Source: Candidatus Saccharimonadota bacterium
Lineage (GTDB): Bacteria > Patescibacteriota > Saccharimonadia > Saccharimonadales > Saccharimonadaceae
Length of the DNA: 64,000 bases
Direction of reading: 5' to 3'
Assembly: GCA_017432425.1 (NCBI GenBank)
Contig: JAFRJE010000002.1
Span: forward strand, 1-64,000
The notes under the pieces were generated by a model. It had not been told where the DNA came from, made no database searches, and saw only the letters and a list, made by a program, of their open reading frames with translations. A program made the position numbers and the translations under genes. Shown piece by piece: positions 46,309 to 47,190 of the stretch (positions within the stretch are counted from its first letter, which is position 1; each line of letters opens with the position of its first letter).

Positions 46309-47190
46309 ATGCGCGAACTAAAACTTTTCTCCTGGAACGTAAACGGTCTCCGCGCCGTTCTGAAAAAAGGCGCGCTCGTCGATTTTCTTGAGCGCGAATA
46401 CCCCGACGTCCTCTGCCTCCAAGAAATAAAATGTACCCCCGCCCAAGTTGATTTGGAAAAAGAAAACGAAATCTTCCGTGACTACGAAATCTTCTGGAAT
46501 CCCGCGAAACGCCTCGGCTACTCCGGAACAATGACATTGGTTAAGAAAGGTCTCATAAAGGCTTCTTCGAGGGACTCCCGGACCGCCACGAGGGAGGATG
46601 AGGCGGCTTCCGCCCGTAACGACGGGCCGGAAGAACGCCGACCCGAGAAGAACGCCTTTAGAGACCTTTCTACTAGCGAGGGAAGAATCATTTATTTAGA
46701 TTTAGATAATTTTTATCTCGTCAACGTCTATACCCCAAACAGCAAACCCGACCTCTCTCGCCTCACGCTTCGCGAAAAAACTTGGGACCCGGAATTCCTA
46801 GAACTCTTAAAAACCCTTGAAAAAGAAAAGCCCGTCGTAACTTGTGGTGATTTTAACTGCGCAAACGAAGAAATCGACCTCGCCCGCCCGAAAACCAACC
46901 ATAAAAACGCCGGCTTTACCGACGAAGAGCGTCGCGGGCTTTCAAATCTCCTCGCCGCCGGTTTCCTCGATACTTTCCGCTTTAAATTCCCCGAGGAAAA
47001 ACGTTATACTTGGTGGTCTCATTGGGGAAATGCGCGAAAAAACAACGTCGGCTGGCGGATTGACTATTTTTTCATTTCGAAATCTCTCGAAAAAAATCTA
47101 GCCTCCGCCGAGATTTATGAGTCCTATTTCGGCTCCGACCATTGCCCCATCTCGATTACTCTAACTTTCCCAGAAACCTCCGAGGCTTAA
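46309..47190 (+). CDS. xth: Exodeoxyribonuclease III / AP endonuclease with an in-frame palindromic insert
   Basis: Cuts DNA at abasic sites and trims 3' ends. LFSWNVNGLRAVLKKG, DVLCLQEIKC, FYLVNVYTPNS, VVTCGDFNCANEEIDLARPK, GLSNLLAAGFLDTFR, YTWWSHWGNARKNNVGWRIDYFF and GSDHCPI supply the full catalytic set. Between LVKKG and EGRIIYLD, where other members have fewer than 20 residues, there are about 43, encoded by a 134-bp inverted-repeat element (residues about 80-123) of arginine/glutamate-rich sequence. The frame is open, so the enzyme is probably functional with a surface loop extension. It is co-transcribed with smpB. Confidence 0.93.
   Translation: MRELKLFSWNVNGLRAVLKKGALVDFLEREYPDVLCLQEIKCTPAQVDLEKENEIFRDYEIFWNPAKRLGYSGTMTLVKKGLIKASSRDSRTATREDEAASARNDGPEERRPEKNAFRDLSTSEGRIIYLDLDNFYLVNVYTPNSKPDLSRLTLREKTWDPEFLELLKTLEKEKPVVTCGDFNCANEEIDLARPKTNHKNAGFTDEERRGLSNLLAAGFLDTFRFKFPEEKRYTWWSHWGNARKNNVGWRIDYFFISKSLEKNLASAEIYESYFGSDHCPISITLTFPETSEA
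46546..46679 (+). repeat. Palindromic element inserted in-frame in xth
   Basis: AAAGGTCTCATAAAGGC-TTCTTC at the left is mirrored by GAAGAAC-GCCTTTAGAGACCTTT at the right. Inside, CTCCC pairs with GGGAG and GGCGGCTTCCG-CCCGT-AACG-ACGGG-CCGGAAG forms a second long hairpin. The element is much more GC-rich than its surroundings and contains no stop in the xth frame. Confidence 0.75.

Follow-up and report, generated by a model that had tools for sequence, protein, structure and literature searches.

A palindromic element in the xth gene of a Saccharibacteria genome and the family of in-frame palindromes around it

In a stretch of 64,000 nucleotides from a Candidatus Saccharimonadota genome (GCA_017432425.1, contig JAFRJE010000002.1), hereafter the window, the DNA-repair gene xth of the exonuclease III / AP endonuclease family (46309-47190, forward strand) contains a long palindrome; the bacterium is a gut Saccharibacterium. 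The host ORF of 293 aa remains open through the insert, carries Pfam PF03372 at residues 8-278 and matches PDB 8igi with an E value of 6e-73. An earlier note had described here a palindromic unit with nested hairpins, which proved to be real, with ends slightly shifted from the noted ones. The palindrome (46544-46671) consists of two 30-nt arms, 77% complementary, with 68 nt between them. In particular, the left arm of an outer stem, P1 (46544-46573), and the right arm, its reverse complement (46642-46671), enclose the hairpin P2 of a three-way junction (46575-46596, covarying helices 3 and 4) and the hairpin P3 (46602-46639, helix 5, 96.4% paired), all on the forward strand. The predicted RNA fold has an energy of -69.4 kcal/mol as compared with -44.1 +/- 3.9 for 200 dinucleotide shuffles (z = -6.5), none of which (0/200) folds as stably. 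A covariance model termed R1 recognizes the core and inner arms on the forward strand at 46555-46660 (72.8 bits, E 4.5e-20), its only match in the window. A near-invariant motif of P3 is CCCGTRRCGACGGG, represented in the xth copy by CCCGTAACGACGGG. The outer part of the left arm, AAGAAAGG, provides K-K-G codons and is similar to the orthologue L040 with an empty site, as judged from the loop DNA and the 8igi alignment; it looks like native sequence.

The frame of xth was also said to be unbroken, and the open ORF bears this out. The loop has 38 residues as compared with 11 in the 8igi chain, that is, 27 aa more, and most orthologues of the genus without such a loop insert measure 258-270 aa as compared with 293 aa here. 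The Pfam Exo_endo_phos domain runs across the insert, with the conserved blocks intact on either side. In an AlphaFold model of Xth built from 28 orthologues, pLDDT is below 50 at residues 89-123, between the well-predicted strands 73-79 and 126-132. This prediction fits a disordered surface loop and agrees with the placement of the junction, in the earlier note, at a surface loop between conserved blocks. No function of the insert for the host protein is proposed, nor does the reading preferred below make such a claim. The same note would have seen an old protein loop had all close relatives shown the same residues at this place without repeat character. The comparison gave a different picture, as the element is missing from xth in nearly all relatives examined. 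One relative (G059, L035) does have a copy in the same loop, so that the site is not unique to GCA_017432425.1.

The element is a dispersed repeat. A blastn search with the 134-bp sequence first described retrieved three further copies in the genome of GCA_017432425.1 (four in total), and the R1 model, built from 16 copies, retrieved ten. Besides xth, these lie within long ORFs (L401, L402, L406 and L407, where L402 resembles lysS and L407 a Val/Ile-tRNA synthetase), at the 5' end of mnmA (L408) and between genes (L400, L403, L404 and L405), the gene names being read from translations. R1 matches were present in 90 of the 99 genomes of the genus, taken to be Candidatus Nanosyncoccus (Saccharibacteria), with 0-39 copies per genome, the strict filters applied making these counts minimum values. 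By blastn, 48 of 60 same-genus genomes were matched, whereas the 40 genomes from other genera of the order gave no match (0/40). A scan of 84,980 named species for the exact core pattern found at least 119 stretches; all 80 among the matches listed are Candidatus Saccharibacteria records, mostly from the ruminant gut, one of them being Candidatus Nanosyncoccus alces NZ_PRLM01000001, which has exact 300-nt stretches in common with contig 1 of the genome G001, and on this ground the genus is assigned to Nanosyncoccus. Rfam holds no family for the element, giving only a sub-threshold chance match elsewhere, and the open-access literature, with subscription journals outside the scope, yielded no description of palindromic elements from Saccharibacteria or Nanosyncoccus. 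R1-type palindromes apparently form a large, previously unreported family, whose members sit without loss of frame in many essential genes throughout one genus. As to their distribution within genomes, a contig of 59,874 bases (G006, C5) has at least nine clustered copies, while longer contigs have few. The dispersal of the family bears on another account of the locus, an old, ordinary protein loop that is hypervariable and happens to be palindromic. The length of the xth loop does vary across the genus, as that account would have it, but the fold (z -6.5) and the many copies dispersed as DNA over unrelated genes and intergenic positions speak against it; the dispersed copies refute it, and we regard its probability as negligible.

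A common fold unites all copies, in which the long stem P1 closes a three-way junction that contains the conserved hairpins P2 and P3. P1 spans 24-28 bp, and its sequence differs from copy to copy while the pairing is kept. Under a strict definition of arm extension, the medians over 213 copies are 28 nt for the arm, 66 nt for the core and 121 nt for the whole. Among 81 distinct sequences, 90.4% of cells form standard pairs as compared with 63.7% after shuffling and 35-47% with the partners slid, where the alignment is fitted to the model, so that the figures lean towards it, and the slid controls have the same relatedness; 36 of the 41 base pairs show changes on both sides in some copies. Farther than about 9 nt from the core the arm sequences are little conserved, the outer 15-mers of the arms are all distinct (213/213), and only 15 of the 213 copies have arms in common with a non-orthologous copy. 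A sub-family is formed by five copies of GCA_017432425.1 (L403-L407) with the common arms CTCGCTAGCCGAG...AATAAGGGG, which, to judge from this likeness, seem to have moved together with the core.

The copies in genes were located against the ORFs of two relatives, G046 and G138, by means of alignments spanning or flanking each copy. By this measure 146 of the 213 copies are genic, in a sample that is non-random in that it includes 13 trmD copies, trmD having been fetched deliberately. The frame is the same on both sides in all 146, one with a stop inside the segment and 145 stop-free, and frameshifted insertions, expected as split matches in different frames, were absent among these 146. Orientation within genes is about even (67 sense and 79 antisense, spans and splits together), and the coding phase is biased, yet every phase is represented. 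Thus the principle invoked in the earlier note, that of the Rickettsia palindromic elements (RPE) which colonize coding sequences, extends to many other genes, as a likeness of description rather than of RPE sequence. One such gene is trmD, which is present in 94 of the 99 genomes and in about 38 of them shows a match split at the linker before HYIILCPHYEG; this linker is an insertion hot spot. The trmD examples that were fetched contain R1 in both orientations as well as other inserts, all of them open. Relatives with an empty site show the insertion directly: G138, 95% identical in amino acids, reads ARTFAKDAHYI where G006 reads ARKFAS, the insert and HYI, with a net gain of 96 nt.

R1 is not the only palindrome at such sites. 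In other species the trmD and xth loops that house R1 hold several unrelated palindromic inserts, themselves dispersed, and some sites with R1 in G050 contain a different palindrome in G046. One of these, a second palindromic family, is inserted with the frame kept in the trmD linker (L133, L139, L141, L145, L148) and the xth loop (L041, L042, L045) of other species, has fold z scores of -6.8 to -9.8 and is also dispersed at L273, L307 and L347. At least three further families of palindromic inserts, in the trmD linker or elsewhere (L127, L253, L287, L335, L348 and L379; L128, L144, L150 and L138), each have several dispersed relatives, and L138 is an almost perfect 174-nt hairpin. For the intergenic R1 copies L169 and L183, the G046 equivalents (L224, L263) are occupied by a simple hairpin resembling a terminator; L183 additionally has a direct duplication of its left arm sequence.

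The nearly unique arms call for an explanation of their own. One proposal is that only the core moves and that a new copy folds back and copies one flank of its target as outer stem, thereby acquiring its own arms. The distinct outer ends of all 213 copies are what it predicts, and in G006 trmD the upstream arm consists of native codons while the downstream arm is a new reverse complement of it. Moreover, the median net insert of 120 genic copies is 99 nt as compared with 121 nt for the palindrome, and the net length minus the core, divided by the arm, has a median of 1.09, consistent with one arm being native, as a single copied arm predicts. However, the values of this ratio spread widely, and arm length is only a weak predictor of net length (slope 0.49, r 0.21). 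Five further sites of G006, holding six copies (L172, L178 with two, L186 and L191 among them), correspond to short empty sites in G138 to which neither arm clearly aligns, the matches being at or little above chance; at L164, G138 has another insert. The common arms of L403-L407 further argue that arms can travel with the unit. Because of the scattered ratio, the low r and the non-matching G006 sites, target copying is not claimed as general, and we consider it rather unlikely as the explanation of the family.

Comparison of copies at orthologous sites indicates how arms and core change after insertion. In a gapped test of arm co-change, in which pairs of copies are non-independent, base pairs changed on both sides were kept paired in 358 cases as against 125 broken. 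The orientation of the core scrambles with divergence: pairs with more than 80% flank identity were the same in 11 cases and flipped in 1, those at 75-80% in 60 and 28, and those at 70-75% in 45 and 62. Part of the flipped pairs could represent independent insertions at hot spots. At L165, G050 and G046 have common arms around an inverted core. The homogenization of arms and the inversion of spacers are known outcomes of template switching between inverted repeats (PMC8604942), and since arm homogenization and core inversion together form this known pattern, template switching is favoured. Probably, therefore, it homogenized the arms and inverted the core of these elements in cells without a recognizable SbcD.

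The mismatches within the arms add a further feature. Up to 25 bp from the core, G-T mismatches outnumber A-C mismatches on the element strand by 186 to 50, whereas farther out the ratio is about even, and the excess tracks the element strand rather than the host transcript strand. Near the core it may in part reflect shared ancestry of the inner arms; at 15-24 bp it suggests that one element strand matters, either as RNA or as single-stranded DNA. It would be compatible with an element that carries only its structured core and builds the closing stem from target DNA through that one strand, RNA or single-stranded DNA, a possibility that we hold to be quite unlikely. If true, the surplus of G-T relative to A-C mismatches along the element strand would, together with the nearly unique arms, be the signature of a core-only element. 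The same mismatches bear on a different proposal, namely that the elements are structured regulatory RNAs in host mRNAs, with the arms held by selection on the transcript. Strong covariation, a fold far more stable than shuffles and the position of some copies at former terminators would all be expected of such RNAs, but the copies lie in both orientations within genes, even at the same trmD site, the mismatch bias ignores the transcript strand, and Rfam has no corresponding family. A function as mRNA structure is therefore rejected in view of the mixed orientation and of the bias along the element strand, and we give this proposal a very low probability.

Candidate enzymes for the movement were sought in 40 genomes of the genus. 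The Y1 transposase (PF01797; RAYT) had no match in 39 of them, GCA_017432425.1 included, and is rejected as the mobilizer given its near absence (1/40). A reverse transcriptase above the cut-off occurs in 24 of the 40; by eye its presence bears no relation to copy number, genomes without one being equally rich (G035 with 23 copies, G039 with 20), and it is likewise rejected as the mobilizer. These reverse transcriptase matches (L395-L398 and others) are genes of about 380 aa, possibly belonging to diversity-generating retroelements. SbcD was above the cut-off in none of the 40 genomes. As a separate observation on the host, the genome of GCA_017432425.1 (G000) has no match for RNA polymerase omega (PF01192), as compared with one in each of 14 control genomes (14/14).

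All in all, we consider it likely that the xth element is a copy of a genus-specific, non-autonomous, RPE-like palindrome of about 120 bp, whose arms and core undergo template switching and which is mobilized in trans. The element would spread to many loci by means of some enzyme acting in trans, and copies landing in protein linkers would survive if the frame is kept, thus being translated as a mostly disordered insert. After insertion, polymerase template switching between the arms would mainly keep their complementarity and invert the core, and the palindromes would persist because the cells have no recognizable SbcD hairpin nuclease. Against this explanation stand the Y1 transposase in a single genome and the reverse transcriptase without visible relation to copy number. 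It is also odd, for a unit moving with its arms, that so few non-orthologous copies have arms in common, and the element-strand G-T excess is not predicted by template switching alone.

Among known systems, the CGTC-tagged REPs are likewise short palindromes without a dedicated transposase and sometimes lie within genes (PMC3733652); they are set apart, by description, in being 20-40 bp long, mainly extragenic and tagged with CGTC at one end. The REP/RAYT system differs in its RAYT, the Y1 transposase lacking in 39 of 40 genomes of the genus. MITEs such as Correia/NEMIS, ERIC and RUP are similarly small and non-autonomous, with a long stem and known in-frame fusions (PMC2229807), but most R1 copies have no conserved terminal inverted repeats at their outer ends; the search for a partner transposase covered PF01797, which was matched in 1 of 40 genomes. 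The coding palindromes of Nematomorpha mitochondria and the template-switch palindromes of yeast genes share inverted repeats in translated genes, arm homogenization and spacer inversion (PMC6649704, PMC8604942); unlike R1, they are not families of dispersed repeats built on a conserved core. The closest likeness, drawn from descriptions in reviews rather than from sequence, is to the RPE and the palindromic elements of Wolbachia, which are palindromes of about 105-150 bp (here a median of 121 nt), dispersed and in frame in unrelated conserved genes, with several families per genome and no known transposase (PMC2229807, PMC10969869). The R1 family differs from these in its phylum, in its three-way-junction core, in outer stems that are nearly copy-specific, in lying within genes in both orientations and in a core orientation that scrambles between species. 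Most descriptions of protein-coding palindromes have come from Rickettsia and Wolbachia, and the occurrence of R1 in the majority of species of one genus of Saccharibacteria shows that a distant phylum with very small genomes also gives rise to them, with both orientations in use and with recurrent hot spots, the trmD linker among them. With many species, up to 39 copies in each and empty sites in relatives, the movement of the element, the tolerance of proteins and the evolution of arms become directly approachable. By analogy with the reviewed systems, R1 is best regarded as a new family of protein-coding palindromes, RPE-like in its working, in a distant phylum and with features that are unlisted for RPEs in those reviews (PMC2229807, PMC10969869).
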